In this document: in pieces, positions 4,989 to 31,423 of the stretch
Position numbering within the stretch: position 1 is the stretch's first letter
Layout of the letters: the number at the start of each line of letters is the position of its first letter
IMG/VR virus record: IMGVR_UViG_3300023181_000048
Location: 1-40,381 of that record
DNA from: a virus
Strand: one strand, 5' to 3'
DNA: 40,381 nt
Program-made: the position numbers and the translations under genes
Notes under the pieces: generated by a model
Told to the model about the DNA's origin: nothing
The model's input: the letters and a program-made list of their open reading frames with translations, nothing else
Databases searched by the model: none

Positions 4989-5260
4989 GCGGACACCTGC
5001 CGCAGCTTCATCTCGCCGTTGATGAAATGGGTTTCATTCCACATCGAGAACTTGGTGGTCCCGACTGCGAGATACGCACCAGGCCATTCGAAAGTGACAG
5101 TGCCGTTCTCACTCGGCGTCACGTCAGTGTCGGGACGATTCCAGATGGAAACCAACGCCCAACAGTTGGCTACGACCTCGGGCAGCGGCGCAAACGAGTC
5201 CTTGCCGTTCCATCCGTCTTCCAACTCGGTGAGCTGCTGAAGCTCGCTTGCGGCGGTCAT
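4985..5260 (-). CDS. Hypothetical protein, 91 aa
   Basis: Starts at 5260 in an ATGA overlap with the HNH stop. It reads ELQQLTELEDGWNGKDSFAP..PEVVANCWALV, then a strand-rich part ending in NGEMKLRQVSA. The L-x-x-L-x-D-G-W-N/D-G-x-x-A pattern is common in small prophage proteins of unknown function. Soluble, acidic. Confidence 0.7.
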   Translation of the reverse strand: MTAASELQQLTELEDGWNGKDSFAPLPEVVANCWALVSIWNRPDTDVTPSENGTVTFEWPGAYLAVGTTKFSMWNETHFINGEMKLRQVSA

Positions 5261-5745
5261 GCGTTTGCCTTCTTTGCTACTCGGCACGCATCACAACGGC
5301 ATGCGTAGTTGGTGTAGCCGTTTGTCGTGCCGTGCACACGATCAGGAATCGGTGAGGTACCGCGTCGGCGTCGGTTGGCGTAGGCACCTTCGCGACGGCA
5401 CGTCTTGCATACACGTGCCCCACCACTGCTGGTGTAAGGGTGGCCGTTGGGACACGCCGTCGAAGCCATATGACGGGCGGTTGGGGCAGTCCCGCGGCGG
5501 ATATTCTCACGCTGCGTGACTGGTTCTAGGTGGTCCGGGTTCACGCACGAATGGTTACGGCAGAGGTGGTCGATAACCAGACCTACGGGGATGGGCCCTA
5601 CATGCACTTCGTAGAAGTAGCGGTGCGCGTAACCGTGGCTTCCGGCACGACCATAACCTCGAGGAAGGCGGGGGCCGGTGAAGTTCCAGCATCCGGCAGC
5701 GTCGACTTCGTAGCGCGACAGGTGATCGATGGCGGCGGGGGTCAT
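5257..5745 (-). CDS. HNH endonuclease with C-terminal zinc fingers, 162 aa
   Basis: A homing-type HNH core is visible: residues 54-80 contain the segment V-I-D-H-L-C-R-N-H-S-C-V-N-P-D-H-L, the conserved D-H...N-P-x-H-L signature. Further Cys pairs follow (C-P-N-G-H, C-K-T-C, then C-R-C-D-A-C near the end), probably binding zinc. It is likely a free-standing nuclease of selfish origin inserted after xis. It is coupled by ATGA overlaps to xis and to the next gene. Confidence 0.85.
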   Translation of the reverse strand: MTPAAIDHLSRYEVDAAGCWNFTGPRLPRGYGRAGSHGYAHRYFYEVHVGPIPVGLVIDHLCRNHSCVNPDHLEPVTQRENIRRGTAPTARHMASTACPNGHPYTSSGGARVCKTCRREGAYANRRRRGTSPIPDRVHGTTNGYTNYACRCDACRVAKKANA

Positions 5746-5966
5746 GCGCTCTGCCCTCTCGTAGCATCGCGCTCTTTGATCTTCTCGATGTAGGTGTCCA
5801 GTTCGGACTTCCGGTACATCACTCTTCTGCCGTCGCCTACGGGGGTGATGTCCTTCGACTCGCGTAGGCGGTCGAGGTCACGCAGCGACCCGGAGATGTA
5901 GTAGGCGGCAAGTTCTCGTGTCATCAGCGCCGGCGGGAACTCAATCCGCAGCAGGGGGCCGGTCAC
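5742..5966 (-). CDS. xis: Excisionase-like MerR-type HTH protein, 74 aa
   Basis: Starts with GTG at 5966, overlapping the Cro-like stop as GTGA. Residues 15-56 carry the small winged-HTH pattern of Xis/helix_turn_helix_17 proteins: TRELAAYYISGSLRDLDRLRESKDITPVG then a Tyr-Arg-Lys wing. The proposed role is to bend attachment-site DNA and direct the integrase to excision. Position next to cro and near int supports this. Confidence 0.75.
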   Translation of the reverse strand: MTGPLLRIEFPPALMTRELAAYYISGSLRDLDRLRESKDITPVGDGRRVMYRKSELDTYIEKIKERDATRGQSA

Positions 5967-6202
5967 GATGCCACCTCGATGGCGACAGGTGGACGGAGGA
6001 GGTCTGTTACCTCAACTCCGAAGTGACGGGCGATCGCGTCCAGCTCGTCAATGGTGAATGCACTCAAAATCAACAGTCGGCGGTTGAGTGTAGAAATGGG
6101 GATGCCCGTTGCGTCCGCCAGATCCTTGACGGTCTGACGAGTGCGACCGAGGTGGGCTCGTACTTCCCCGGCCGCGACTTCGGTTCTTCTTTGGTAGCTC
6201 AT
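5963..6202 (-). CDS. Cro-like HTH transcription regulator, 79 aa
   Basis: The start at 6202 (MSYQRRTEV) is chosen because the promoter -10 sits just upstream; an in-frame ATG at 6223 would lie inside the operator. A helix-turn-helix is readable at about residues 22-45 (TRQTVKDLADATGIPISTLNRRL), followed by IDELDAIARHFGV, typical of XRE-type DNA-binding domains. Transcribed divergently from the repressor, it is the first gene of the leftward early operon and a Cro analogue by position. Confidence 0.8.
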   Translation of the reverse strand: MSYQRRTEVAAGEVRAHLGRTRQTVKDLADATGIPISTLNRRLLILSAFTIDELDAIARHFGVEVTDLLRPPVAIEVAS

Positions 6203-6209
6203 GTGAAAT

Positions 6210-6238
6210 ACCGTATCACACACAAGATACGTTGTCTA
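6210..6238 (-). promoter_or_regulatory. Early leftward promoter overlapped by a palindromic operator
   Basis: On the minus strand, -35 TAGACA (6238-6233) and -10 TACGGT (6215-6210, fits TANNNT) are separated by 17 bases. The inverted repeat CGTATC (6212-6217) / GATACG (6226-6231) fills the spacer and part of the -10, so a bound repressor would block polymerase. A further GATACG half-site is at 6287-6292 in the first codons of the repressor gene, which suggests autoregulation. Confidence 0.65.
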
Positions 6239-6280
6239 GCACCAGTGCAATCTAATTTCTCGTGTGCGATGATTTATCTC

Positions 6281-6637
6281 ATGTCAGATACGCTTCAGCC
6301 GAGCCCGCTCAACGAGAAGATCGCAGAGATACTTCGCGAACGCATCGCAAAGTTCCGACTCACGCAAGCATCGATCGCGCGCGTAGCGGGTCTTTCGCAG
6401 TCCTATATGTCGTCCGTGCTAGGCGGCACCAAGCCGTTGAACGTCGATCAGCTAGAAGCTGTCTGTTATTCGTTGGGGTTGGAAATCGATGACGTTTTAG
6501 AACGAGCGGTGCGTGAAGTGCGCGATGAAGGGTGGACCCCTGACGTTCCCGACTTCAGTGTCAGGGGCAACGTGGAGACTGCGAACATGGCGACGAAGAG
6601 GTCGACCAAGAAGAAGGACTCACCTTCTGCTGACTAA
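6281..6637 (+). CDS. Immunity repressor, XRE-family HTH, 118 aa
   Basis: The N-terminal helix-turn-helix spans about residues 10-65 (IAEILRERIAKFRLTQASIARVAGLSQSY, then SSVLGG, then LEAVCYSLGLEIDDVL), a standard Xre/CI-type domain. The C-terminal 45 residues are basic and low-complexity (KRSTKKKD) with no LexA-like autocleavage domain. Start ATG at 6281 is the last in-frame Met before the HTH; an upstream Met at 6269 is possible. With the adjacent ImmA-like protease it forms a repressor/anti-repressor protease pair rather than a RecA-dependent switch. Confidence 0.85.
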   Translation: MSDTLQPSPLNEKIAEILRERIAKFRLTQASIARVAGLSQSYMSSVLGGTKPLNVDQLEAVCYSLGLEIDDVLERAVREVRDEGWTPDVPDFSVRGNVETANMATKRSTKKKDSPSAD

Positions 6638-6655
6638 CCGGGGGACAACGGCGAC

Positions 6656-7093
6656 ATGCAAGAACTTATGAAGATCGCCGCAAGTATCAGGGTCCGAGTG
6701 CACATCTCACACCTTGATGACGATGAAGTCCTAGGGGCATACGACCACTCAACTCGCACAATTCACCTCAGCTTTGGCCTTACCCCCTTCGAACTTCGGT
6801 CTGTTCTGGCGCACGAGCTTGCGCACTGCCTCATGGGTGACCAGTGCAGCACCAGCGCGAACGAGAGAAGAGCCGAACGGCACGCTGCGCAGATGCTCAT
6901 TGCGCCGGAAGATTACGCGGCCGCTGAATCGATCGACCCCTCCCCCGCTGCGATAGCTGACGAGCTGCAGGTGACAGTCGACATTGTGACCGCGTACCAG
7001 GAGCAGTGTTTGCAGCGCCTCGGTGGGCGAACCTATGGCCGCTCATGGCGCACTGGTCTGTCTGGTGCGTTGGCCCGTCAGCTTTCGAGCTGA
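6656..7093 (+). CDS. ImmA/IrrE-family zinc metallopeptidase, 145 aa
   Basis: The zinc motif H-E-L-A-H is at residues 53-57, and a downstream helix NERRAERHAAQML (69-81) supplies the likely third ligand Glu74. In the ImmA family such proteases cleave the phage or ICE repressor to induce the element. It sits 18 bases behind the repressor with a GGGGGA ribosome site, so the pair is co-transcribed. The last 16 bases overlap the convergent integrase gene. Confidence 0.85.
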   Translation: MQELMKIAASIRVRVHISHLDDDEVLGAYDHSTRTIHLSFGLTPFELRSVLAHELAHCLMGDQCSTSANERRAERHAAQMLIAPEDYAAAESIDPSPAAIADELQVTVDIVTAYQEQCLQRLGGRTYGRSWRTGLSGALARQLSS

Positions 7094-8295
7094 CGTCTCT
7101 TCTCGAGCTTGTCCATTGCCTCTGATGCATCCTGTGACGAAACGTGCTGGTATCTGCCGGTCACACCCGGTGACTTGTGTCCGACCATCTCGCCAATCAC
7201 ACGGTCTGCAGTTCCACCTGCTGTCATGTCGGAGATGGCCGTGTGTCTCGCCCAGTGAGTGGTCGCCCCAGGTCTGTCGATTCCGGCCGCCCTGAGTAGC
7301 GCTCTCCACTGTTCCTGATCGGATCTGGGGAGGATGGGTGAGCCGTCTTCTGCCGGCCACAACAGTCCGTGCGGGTTCGGTTGTGAGTTGGCCCGGTCGA
7401 TCTGGTCTTGCAGGATGGATCGGAGTCCTTCGGGGATGGGGAAGGTGCGTTCTTCGCCCGACTTCGGCGGGACCAGCATGAGCCGCCCTTTGAGTACCCG
7501 GTAGTCGGTTACGTCGGGGATCACGAGTCGTTTCTGGGGACAGTGACCGGCCGCCTTTTTGCCGCAGTCGCCAGCGCACCCGTGTTCGTAGTTGCCTTCG
7601 ACCAGGTTCCAGCGGACGGTGAATGTGCCCCGCTCGAGGTCTACGGAATCGATCGTCGCGCCCAGCCGTTCCCCCTGGCGGATGCCCGCGTAGAGGGACA
7701 CCAGCCATTTGGAGCCGTCCGGTATCTGCTTAGCGACTTCCAGGACGTTGAATGTTTCCGCTGGGCTGAGGCTGTCACGGGTGGTCTTCGCCGCTTTGGG
7801 TGGGCGGATGTCGGCGGCCACATTCCGGTCGGTGATCCGCTCAAGTCGTGCCTGTTCGAACATGGCCGACATGACGTTGTGCGCTTTGAGGGCAGTAGAC
7901 GACGCGCGTCCGGCGGCTTTGATGTTGGCGTAGACCTTCGCCAGATCAGACGGGCGGATGTCTTTGACTTTCCGTCGTCCGATCTGTGGCAGAACCCATG
8001 TCTTCAAGATGGAGTTATAGGTGCGGTACGTCTGCGGCTTCTTGGCCTTCACCATCTCCAACCACAAAACGCCCCACTCGGCAACCGTCTGATTGCCGAG
8101 TGGGGCGTCGTGAGTGTTGACTTCGGTGATGAGCTTCGCGAGTTTCGCACGCGCTACAGATTGGGACTTCGAGGTGACGCGGACTTGTTTCCGCTTGCCC
8201 TCAGGGGTGAAGCCGTTGTCGTACGAACCTATCCACAGCTTGCGCGCGGCGTCGAAGTAGAGCCCACCTTGACCGGTGCTGCGCTTGCGGGGCAT
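7078..8295 (-). CDS. int: Tyrosine-type site-specific integrase, 405 aa
   Basis: Start at 8295 is set by AAGGAG six bases upstream. An N-terminal arm-binding domain (residues 1-60) is followed by a SAM-like core-binding domain (about 65-160) and the catalytic domain. Catalytic residues: Arg206 (in AGIRQGERL), His347-x-x-Arg350 (HWARH), His373 (GHKSPGV) and nucleophile Tyr382 (GRYQHV). A Cys-rich insert C-x3-C-x7-C (about 240-252) lies between the first Arg and the HxxR box, as seen in some actinophage integrases. It recombines attP, just upstream, with a host attB. Confidence 0.95.
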   Translation of the reverse strand: MPRKRSTGQGGLYFDAARKLWIGSYDNGFTPEGKRKQVRVTSKSQSVARAKLAKLITEVNTHDAPLGNQTVAEWGVLWLEMVKAKKPQTYRTYNSILKTWVLPQIGRRKVKDIRPSDLAKVYANIKAAGRASSTALKAHNVMSAMFEQARLERITDRNVAADIRPPKAAKTTRDSLSPAETFNVLEVAKQIPDGSKWLVSLYAGIRQGERLGATIDSVDLERGTFTVRWNLVEGNYEHGCAGDCGKKAAGHCPQKRLVIPDVTDYRVLKGRLMLVPPKSGEERTFPIPEGLRSILQDQIDRANSQPNPHGLLWPAEDGSPILPRSDQEQWRALLRAAGIDRPGATTHWARHTAISDMTAGGTADRVIGEMVGHKSPGVTGRYQHVSSQDASEAMDKLEKRRQLES

Positions 8296-8423
8296 CGGTG
8301 CTCCTTGGGTTGTCTGTCGTGTGCGGTCCACTGCCCGCCGATGATGCCGATATGAATTGGTCTTCTATGTACTGGCTGCTTATGATTCATGGGTCGAGCC
8401 TGCTTTCTCAGGTATTCGATCGA

Positions 8424-8457
8424 GGGTCACTGGTTCCAGCCGGTGGCCCTCTTTTTG
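8424..8457 (+). terminator. Rho-independent terminator, plus strand
   Basis: Stem GGGTCACTGG (8424-8433) / CCGGTGGCCC (8440-8449) with two wobble pairs and a 6-base loop, followed by TCTTTTTGTT. It would stop rightward transcripts, such as repressor-ImmA read-through across int, before the att region. Confidence 0.75.
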
Positions 8458-8478
8458 TTGCTTAGGTCGTCCCTAACT

Positions 8479-8500
8479 ATAGGTGGTGGCATAGGTGGTG
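8479..8500. repeat. Tandem 10-bp direct repeats, probable integrase arm-type sites
   Basis: ATAGGTGGTG occurs at 8479-8488 and again at 8491-8500, a 12-bp period (about one helical turn). They lie about 180 bp upstream of int and about 110 bp from the tRNA-like core. This is the usual arrangement of arm-type sites recognised by the N-terminal domain of lambda-class integrases. Role inferred. Confidence 0.5.
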
Positions 8501-8505
8501 ACAAC

Positions 8506-8532
8506 CACTGGCAAACCATATGTTTGCCAGTG
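8506..8532. repeat. Perfect 11-bp inverted repeat in the att region
   Basis: CACTGGCAAAC (8506-8516) and GTTTGCCAGTG (8522-8532) flank a 5-base centre. With 8578-8590 (GGCAATTATTGCC) and the imperfect 8665-8683 (TGCC..GGCA) it makes a cluster of dyads around the presumed attP. Candidate binding site for Xis, host factor or a regulator of int. Confidence 0.55.
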
Positions 8533-8610
8533 TGCGTTTCAGTTCCCACCAGAAGCCCGGAATATCAACGATCTACAGGCAATTATTGCCCACAATTGGG
8601 GACAAGAAAA

Positions 8611-8661
8611 GCCTCTGTCTTTCCTTAGGACGGAACTGCTCTTCCATTGAGCTACAGAGGC
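8611..8661 (-). other. tRNA-Arg(CCU)-like element without T arm; presumed attP core
   Basis: Minus strand, 51 nt: acceptor GCCTCTG, then TA, D arm GCTC-AATGGAA-GAGC, A, anticodon arm GTTCC-GTCCTAA-GGAAA (anticodon CCU; outer G-A pair mismatched), GA, then CAGAGGC, which closes the acceptor stem perfectly. The variable loop and T arm are absent and no CCA follows. Most phages integrating into tRNA genes carry part of the gene at attP. Here the 5' half through the anticodon is retained, so crossover in or near the anticodon arm is plausible. A functional tRNA is unlikely. Confidence 0.6.
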
Positions 8662-8979
8662 AGATGCCTGTAATTTACTGGCATCGGCGGCACCGGGACA
8701 AGGGCTGGTGTACACAGAGGTGGGCACATCCGCTCTTGCTGGTGCTATTTGCAAGCTTACGGGTCGACCACTCCCCCACCTCTGACTCAACCCCTCAAAC
8801 TTGTTCCGCCCCTGATCAACCCTCACTGGTTGTTGCAAGTTTTCTTGAACGTTGCGGGGATGTGTAAAGTCTGGGCCTGATTTATTGAACGTCGTTGCTT
8901 GGTCGTACCATCGACTTTGCAGAAGGCCGGTCTGCTCCGAGTAGTTAGGAGCCCAGCCATCGCACACAATTGGACGCCG
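8662..8979. other. Intergenic att flank, no gene seen
   Basis: About 318 bases between the tRNA-like element and the plus-strand 84-aa gene. It holds the imperfect dyad at 8665-8683 and otherwise pyrimidine-rich sequence. The transcript for the downstream gene must start here, but no convincing -35/-10 pair was found. The long minus-strand ORF crossing the region has non-coding composition. Confidence 0.4.
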
Positions 8980-30599: not shown

Positions 30600-31322
30600 C
30601 TAGGCGGCCAGGGGTTCGAGGTAAGTGAGAGTCGATGTGAGGTGTCGATACAGAGGGTCAGCATGTGACCACGAGGTGATGACAGGGGCTAGGTGGCGGC
30701 GCTCCCTGTCTAGTGCCCAATCGGACAGGGCAAGGTCGCGCTTGTCACTGTTACAAGCCGAGCAGGAGGGGAGAAGGTTCGTCAGGTTGTTGGCACCACC
30801 ACGACTGAGTGCAACTACATGCTCGGCCTGGATCTTGTCGAGTGGTGTGGGTCTGCGACAGTATGCACAGCACTTCTCGAAGGTCTTCCATAGCTTGGCA
30901 AGCTCTGCCCATGAGTAGGTGCCGTATGCGTTGTGCTCGCGTCCGCGCCGTGCTGCTTTCTTGAACCGGTCAAGGCAACGAGGTGTGCAGAACCTCGCTC
31001 GAGTTCGTGTGGTTTGGAATGCGTTGCCGCACCATCCACACTCCACCGATCGTGCTGCCGATGGTGGCTTGGGCGTTGCAACCCTGCGCTTCGGCTTCGG
31101 GAAGGTGCAGCTCGTCGGTCCCCACGTCGCATAGTCGCGGCACAGTTCCGAGCAGTACGTACCTTTGTACCGTTGCGATCGGGCTTCCTTGCTGCACTGG
31201 GTTCCACATGCGTCGCATGCCTTCGTGACGCGAGGGTGACGGTTGGGTCGTGTCTGGTTGTAGTGAGTGCTGCATAGACCGAGGGATTTGCTGGGCTTGT
31301 CGCACTTCTGGCAGGTGGGCAT
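30600..31322 (-). CDS. HNH endonuclease with zinc fingers, 240 aa
   Basis: Start at 31322 with GGAG upstream. Two or three Cys-rich zinc modules in the first half (CQKC..C, CDACG..C, CSELC, CGWCG..C..C). The HNH core is at 151-195: C152-x2-C155, E-H168-V-V, N182 and C187-x2-C190-N. Nucleases next to terminase genes assist cos cleavage in HK97-like phages; this one may do so or be a homing enzyme. Confidence 0.85.
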   Translation of the reverse strand: MPTCQKCDKPSKSLGLCSTHYNQTRPNRHPRVTKACDACGTQCSKEARSQRYKGTYCSELCRDYATWGPTSCTFPKPKRRVATPKPPSAARSVECGWCGNAFQTTRTRARFCTPRCLDRFKKAARRGREHNAYGTYSWAELAKLWKTFEKCCAYCRRPTPLDKIQAEHVVALSRGGANNLTNLLPSCSACNSDKRDLALSDWALDRERRHLAPVITSWSHADPLYRHLTSTLTYLEPLAA

Positions 31323-31341
31323 GACATCTCCAAGGAATGCG

Positions 31342-31372
31342 AAAGGCCCAGCACCTTGGATGCTGGGCCTTT
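31342..31372. terminator. 12-bp perfect hairpin, bidirectional terminator-like
   Basis: AAAGGCCCAGCA (31342-31353), 7-base loop, TGCTGGGCCTTT (31361-31372). It lies between the two HNH genes and just before the ribosome site of the second, with short T runs on both strands. Likely partial terminator or mRNA stabiliser. Confidence 0.55.
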
Positions 31373-31423
31373 CTGTCACGGGTAATTAGTCCGTGGTTCT
31401 TTTGTGTTCAGTTGTTATAGCGC

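Follow-up and report, generated by a model that had tools for sequence, protein, structure and literature searches.

Elements that carry the 5′ half of a tRNA gene at their attachment site, instead of the usual 3′ half, have reversed polarity, and Zhao and Williams (2002) are reportedly named alongside them. In the sections of the Islander work used here, a 5′ tDNA fragment is given for 159 of 3,919 islands (PMC4383910). Archaeal pTN3-like integrases are described, in the passages cited, as using the 5′ half and leaving transcription of the tRNA to the integrase promoter, a situation said to be seldom encountered in bacteria (PMC8371274; see PMC6563490). For actinophages, a survey of tRNA-dependent lysogeny reports two outcomes, restoration of the tRNA or its substitution by a distinct phage-encoded tRNA; the portion of that survey available to us makes no mention of the 5′-half case (PMC10865867).

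We analyzed the window, which is the whole 40,381-base stretch of DNA of one IMG/VR virus record. We propose, with a probability of about 0.85, that its minus-strand segment 8661-8611 is the attP core of a temperate phage of the Microbacteriaceae, that the phage integrase acts on the host tRNA-Arg(CCU) gene by recombination in its anticodon loop, and that the polarity of the attP is reversed. In this reading, the T-armless fold would most likely stop transcription. The sequences, the conserved geometry, the lysogen junctions of a relative, and the single integrase clade on which this reading draws were observed directly. The segment reads GCCTCTGTAGCTCAATGGAAGAGCAGTTCCGTCCTAAGGAAAGACAGAGGC and divides into GCCTCTG TA GCTC-AATGGAA-GAGC A GTTCC-GTCCTAA-GGAAA GA CAGAGGC. 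The features of the window are listed by coordinate, with the evidence in parentheses.

1112-2026, minus: phage DNA methyltransferase (phrog_3820, E 2e-97)
5257-5745, minus: HNH endonuclease (PHROGs)
5918-6637, plus: repressor-like HTH protein (annotation)
6656-7093, plus: metallo-protease-like protein (annotation)
7078-8331, minus: tyrosine integrase, 417 aa (PF00589, phrog_1)
8422-8451, plus: 13-bp terminator-like hairpin with T-run, between attP and int (terminator scan)
8476-8504, minus: candidate int promoter TTGTCA-17-TATAGT, overlapping the P′ repeats (sequence)
8482-8504, minus: P′ arm-type direct repeats TTGTCACCACC / TATGCCACCACC (repeat comparison)
8511-8527, minus: P′ dyad GCAAACATATGGTTTGC, 104 bp from the anticodon loop (spacing comparison with relatives)
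8556-8563, minus: ATTCCGGG at +68, remnant of the 3′ arm of a terminator found at the same position in phages R1 and L134; the 5′ arm is absent in the window (comparison)
8604-8610, minus: T-run TTTTCTT directly after the closing strand, the two together forming a candidate terminator (sequence; TTTTTT in relative L010)
8611-8617, minus: phage-specific closing strand CAGAGGC, pairing with the 5′ acceptor strand (folding, shuffles, L010 homologue CAGGGGC)
8611-8661, minus: attP core, 51-nt T-armless tRNA-Arg(CCU)-like fold (sequence, folding, Rfam tRNA model)
8619-8661, minus: 43 bp matching nt 1-43, the 5′ half, of Microbacteriaceae tRNA-Arg(CCU) without mismatch (comparison with host genes)
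8625-8631, minus: anticodon loop GTCCTAA with inverted TTCC/GGAA flanks, predicted 7-bp crossover (overlap) region (constant P′-arm spacing in relatives; common core of attL and attR in lysogen G092)
8663-8685, minus: inverted repeat GATGCC-N11-GGCATC, separated from the tRNA 5′ end by 1 nt (conserved across three lineages, paired changes in L010)
8672-8677, minus: -10-like TAAATT, occupying -16 to -11 relative to the tRNA 5′ end, where the host gene has TARACT (host-promoter comparison)
8696-8701, minus: weak -35-like TTGTCC, 18 nt before the -10-like box, not conserved (sequence)
8707-8723, minus: P-arm repeat CCACCTCTGTGTACACC (compare GCACCTCTGTGTGCAC in phage R1; repeat comparison)
30600-31379, minus: HNH endonuclease (PHROGs)

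The divergent plus-strand block next to int (5918-7093) is likely an immunity region. A plasmid-control-RNA-like Rfam match at 8402-8463 was rejected; it scores below the cutoff and overlaps an ordinary plus-strand terminator.

We found that the 51-nt element folds into a 7- to 8-bp acceptor stem, a D arm, and an anticodon arm (CCU), with no T arm (minimum free energy, -19.7 kcal/mol; equally low in 1 of 200 shuffles). The Rfam tRNA model spans the whole element at 30.0 bits against a cutoff of 29, with the T arm and variable loop deleted. Folding and the Rfam match together confirm the T-armless tRNA-Arg(CCU)-like fold with a closed acceptor stem given in the preliminary description. ARAGORN called no tRNA anywhere in the window, and the element lacks the complete cloverleaf, T arm included, of a functional tRNA. 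In animal mitochondria, T-armless tRNAs become aminoacylated and serve in translation. They share with the window element a secondary structure without a T arm, but nothing about the element suggests aminoacylation or translational use.

Among the matches listed, the host tRNA-Arg(CCU) gene has the form GCCTCTGTAGCTCAATGGAAGAGCAGTTCCGTCCTAAGGAAAGGGTTGGGGGTTCGAGTCCCTCCAGGGGCAC in more than 100 genome contigs, mostly from Microbacteriaceae. We found that the phage element equals this gene over nt 1-43, anticodon stem-loop included, and that identity stops there, the phage having no T arm. This bears out the earlier claim that the 5′ half is retained and not the usual 3′ half. It also answers the proposed check against host tRNAs, in which the lack of a match would mean chance similarity: the host tRNA-Arg(CCU) does match. 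A chance resemblance would agree with the missing ARAGORN call, but it is refuted by the 43-nt host identity, the Rfam match, the attP context, and the conservation in relatives, and we regard its probability as negligible. We place the host of the window phage only to the family level, as a probable member of the Microbacteriaceae, because the search used this tRNA sequence alone and covers the matches listed.

The integrase gene adjoins the element on the same strand, and arm-type repeats flank both sides of the element at conserved spacing. These features uphold the earlier assignment of the element as attP. Counting from the first base of the anticodon loop, the P′ dyad has the same position, exactly +104, in the window, L002, L003, L010, R1, L134, L135, and L138, as well as in lysogen G092. 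The relatives have arm repeats at +126 to +128 and at +138 to +139 and a P-arm repeat near -90. Because the spacing of the P′ dyad and arm repeats is constant in 5′-half and 3′-half attPs, the crossover region appears to be shared, with only the carried half differing, and it is most likely the anticodon loop in the window phage and its relatives alike. The preliminary description had suggested a different crossover site. This did not hold: the dyad and repeats stand at +104, +127, and +138 from the anticodon loop, as in ordinary 3′-half relatives. From this spacing and the 40-bp common core in G092 we infer that strand exchange in the window phage would take place at the anticodon loop. When the attP region was compared with the phage collection at the DNA level, no match was obtained.

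The closest named integrase relative is Microbacterium phage vB_MoxS-R1 (R1), at 43% identity. Its record (MW073100.1) is the prophage form, with a 50-bp att direct repeat at both ends. Each repeat includes a tRNA-Thr(CGU) 3′ half, which runs from the anticodon stem through the 3′ end. The end pseudogene annotated there as "tRNA-OTHER" is the attR copy. The integrases of the actinophages with ordinary 3′-half attPs (R1, L135, and L138) are about 43 to 45% identical to that of the window, and L138 carries the 3′ half of the same tRNA-Arg(CCU). These phages share with the window a homologous integrase, the same P/P′ layout, and the same +104 spacing. They place the 3′ half beside int, usually followed by a hairpin, whereas the window phage has the 5′ half on the side away from int and a T-armless stub in place of the 3′ half and hairpin. 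A third layout in the integrase family is found in L139 and L141 (G152), in which a tRNA 3′ half (Pro-GGG, Arg-CCU) is oriented oppositely relative to int.

On the 5′-half side, L002, L003, and L004 have integrases 97 to 100% identical to the window's and an identical element, and L010, on the same contig as L005, has an integrase 57% identical in an alignment and 56% identical by tblastn. In the integrase tree, the 5′-half group (window, L003, L004, L005, and L140) is separated from seven 3′-half relatives by one branch with support of 100/100. Because the 5′-half integrases make one clade, a single polarity change suffices. The ordinary layout was probably ancestral. Two further records carry complete tRNA genes: the L010 phage has a tRNA-Asn(GTT) unrelated to its attachment site (L144, G401:C1:25827-25898), and the viral contig L011 (IMGVR_UViG_3300007516_002427) has a six-tRNA-gene cluster at 7962-8557 that includes a complete tRNA-Arg(CCU) near the host form.

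A six-frame integrase search of 400 Microbacteriaceae genomes identified one, G092, with an integrase 65% identical to the window's; an integrase-only protein-pattern scan of genome contigs gave no match. G092 is a draft genome, and its prophage is spread over two contigs. At attL, we found a host-type TAAACT box at its normal distance from the tRNA 5′ half; phage sequence comes next, with the dyad at +104 and the integrase. Beyond attL lie genes common to many host tRNA-Arg(CCU) neighborhoods (synteny). The genome has one further 5′-half copy, on another contig, and this is a complete tRNA-Arg(CCU) at attR. It is the only complete copy found in that genome, and a search allowing up to 3 mismatches found no second 3′ half. 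At attR, phage tail genes are followed by the dyad and the complete tRNA. To the left are phage genes (tape-measure, tail, lysin-like, and superinfection-exclusion); to the right are a Fic protein and a cyclase, and this far side matches none of the host loci compared. attL and attR have a common core of 40 bp that starts exactly at tRNA nt 1. A rebuilt tRNA with element DNA upstream, and a displaced 5′ fragment at the other end, are therefore seen in G092. This junction structure indicates that the G092 prophage provides the 5′ half and everything upstream of the rebuilt tRNA-Arg(CCU). The T-armless form was present in 0 of the 400 genomes, so no lysogen of the window lineage was found among them. 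When we joined window sequence to three host genes in this arrangement, ARAGORN called tRNA-Arg(CCU) in the predicted attR; it called none in the predicted attL.

Taken by itself, the closing strand is less improbable than the 43-nt identity. A 7-nt strand able to close GCCTCTG within the same reach is offered by 0.9% of window positions, and when the last 9 nt were shuffled, 8 of 1,000 sequences folded as well. L010, an independent lineage, reads ...GGAATGACAGGGGC followed by TTTTTT; its CAGGGGC closes the same stem via a U·G pair, and an A-T pair lies at the base of its anticodon stem. The closing strand occurs only in the window lineage and in L010 (57%-identical integrase), with pairing kept despite substitutions. 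Identity between the window and L010 is 41/43 in the 5′ half, 11/15 in the stub and T-run, and 14/39 in the next 39 bases. R1 and L134 have, in the same interval, the 3′ half of the tRNA followed by a strong hairpin of the terminator type. The pairing in G092 (GCCTC/GAGGC) is longer, includes an additional hairpin, lacks a T-run, and is not clearly beyond chance. In the window, the candidate terminator consists of the 7- to 8-bp acceptor stem followed by TTTTCTT; the stem closes a two-arm multiloop, and a simple terminator scan gives no call. A terminator with a multibranched stem is unusual. We give roughly even odds to the idea that the closing strand and T-run are a replacement terminator that shields int from the tRNA promoter.

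The DNA upstream of the tRNA 5′ end is phage sequence with possible control signals. Each 5′-half lineage has a dyad there: GATGCC-N11-GGCATC in the window, CATCCC-N11-GGGATG in L010, and GATGCCC-N8-GGGCATC in G092. The paired changes suggest a working dyad, either an operator or a leader hairpin. As a repeated operator, GATGCC-N11-GGCATC was rejected, as the window holds a single exact copy and near-matches at chance level. The -10-like box sits inside the inverted repeat at 8663-8685. In host genes, TARACT occupies -16 to -11 relative to the tRNA, and 67 of 116 have a TANNNT-type box there; L010 has TAGATA at this position. The window box scores moderately on the host promoter matrix, because host boxes vary in register, and 0.6% of window positions score as high. 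In L010 and G092 the box is weak. These sequences are consistent with a phage-side promoter that would serve the rebuilt tRNA in the window phage.

According to our model, the tyrosine integrase would recombine the phage attP core within the anticodon loop of the host tRNA-Arg(CCU). At attR, integration would join phage upstream sequence and the phage 5′ half to the host 3′ half, and the tRNA would be rebuilt. Because the DNA upstream of attR is phage DNA, the rebuilt tRNA would have to be transcribed from phage-side sequence. At attL, a short 3′ strand from the phage would follow the host promoter and host 5′ half. This strand would, in the window lineage, close the acceptor stem ahead of the T-run, and transcription from the tRNA promoter would most likely end before int, which may be read from its own promoter-like site at 8504-8476. 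The T-armless stub would have replaced the ancestral tRNA 3′ half and terminator hairpin of the same interval. In an ancestor with the ordinary layout, the 3′ half and terminator may have decayed once the 5′ half was carried, and acceptor closure with the T-run would have taken over the role of stopping the tRNA promoter before int.

Two other readings of the stub itself have to be weighed against this model. The element may be the decayed remnant of a phage tRNA gene whose T arm has disappeared, and it would now have no function beyond recombination. The L010 closing strand CAGGGGC is the same as the host 3′ acceptor strand, as expected from T-arm loss. However, the closing strand and T-run persist while the neighboring sequence has diverged, and the +104 spacing is unchanged, which a plain deletion would reach only with compensation. 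We consider simple decay unlikely. Less probable still is the tRNA mimic raised in the preliminary description, in which the 51-nt RNA would be transcribed and act, for example, as a decoy for anticodon nuclease, ArgRS, or tRNA-modifying enzymes. Such a role would fit a fold kept in two lineages with pair-preserving changes, the complete D and anticodon arms, and the promoter-like box upstream. But nt 1-43 would be kept anyway as the future part of the host tRNA, and termination explains the closing strand equally well in both closed lineages. The third lineage, represented by the lysogenic relative G092, closes its 5′ half differently and has no T-armless form. We found no positive evidence for a mimic.

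Another possibility is tRNA-dependent lysogeny, in which the host tRNA is destroyed and a separate phage tRNA gene substitutes for it. Such systems are known in actinophages, according to the part of the survey cited here (PMC10865867), and the int-side junction rebuilds no tRNA. However, the window holds no complete tRNA, and in the relative's record the one additional tRNA is tRNA-Asn(GTT); a separate complete cognate phage tRNA-Arg was found in neither record, and virus records may be incomplete. Moreover, the other junction rebuilds the tRNA, and the G092 attR sequence contradicts such a substitution, which makes it highly improbable here. We also considered a combination in which the host's only tRNA-Arg(CCU) is put under a phage-controlled promoter and a T-armless tRNA transcribed from the former host promoter has a function of its own. 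This is a long shot; if true, lysogeny would rewire the supply of one tRNA and add a tRNA mimic.

Our preferred reading, a reversed-polarity attP whose T-armless fold would act in termination, can be set beside the known systems as they are described in the parts of the sources cited. In pTN3-like and Islander 5′-half elements, as would be the case in the window phage, the rebuilt tRNA takes its 5′ half and its upstream sequence from the element (PMC8371274, PMC4383910, PMC6563490). When pTN3 integrates, its int gene is split and the int promoter drives the tRNA, whereas int of the window phage would stay intact at the other junction. Fionnbharth and Gaia (PMC10865867) likewise use an actinophage tyrosine integrase at a tRNA gene, and the lysogen relies on phage sequence for one tRNA. 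Those phages have a core of 8 to 17 bp, and loss of the host tRNA is made good by a separate tRNA of the phage; in contrast, the window phage would supply half a gene from which the tRNA is rebuilt. Reversed polarity itself is thus rare but already known. The variant with a stub that closes the acceptor stem appears to be new, as a limited search of partly available literature found no description of a half-tRNA attP of this kind.

Such sites are likely to be misread by att-core finders that expect 3′ halves and by tRNA finders. Within one integrase family, and on the same tRNA, three attP layouts are found: the 3′ half beside int, the 3′ half in the opposite orientation, and, on the side away from int, the 5′ half. 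How attP polarity evolved can therefore be tested directly in this family. The lysogen provides a clear actinophage case in which the only tRNA-Arg(CCU) found in that genome owes its 5′ half and upstream control region to the prophage and not to the host.
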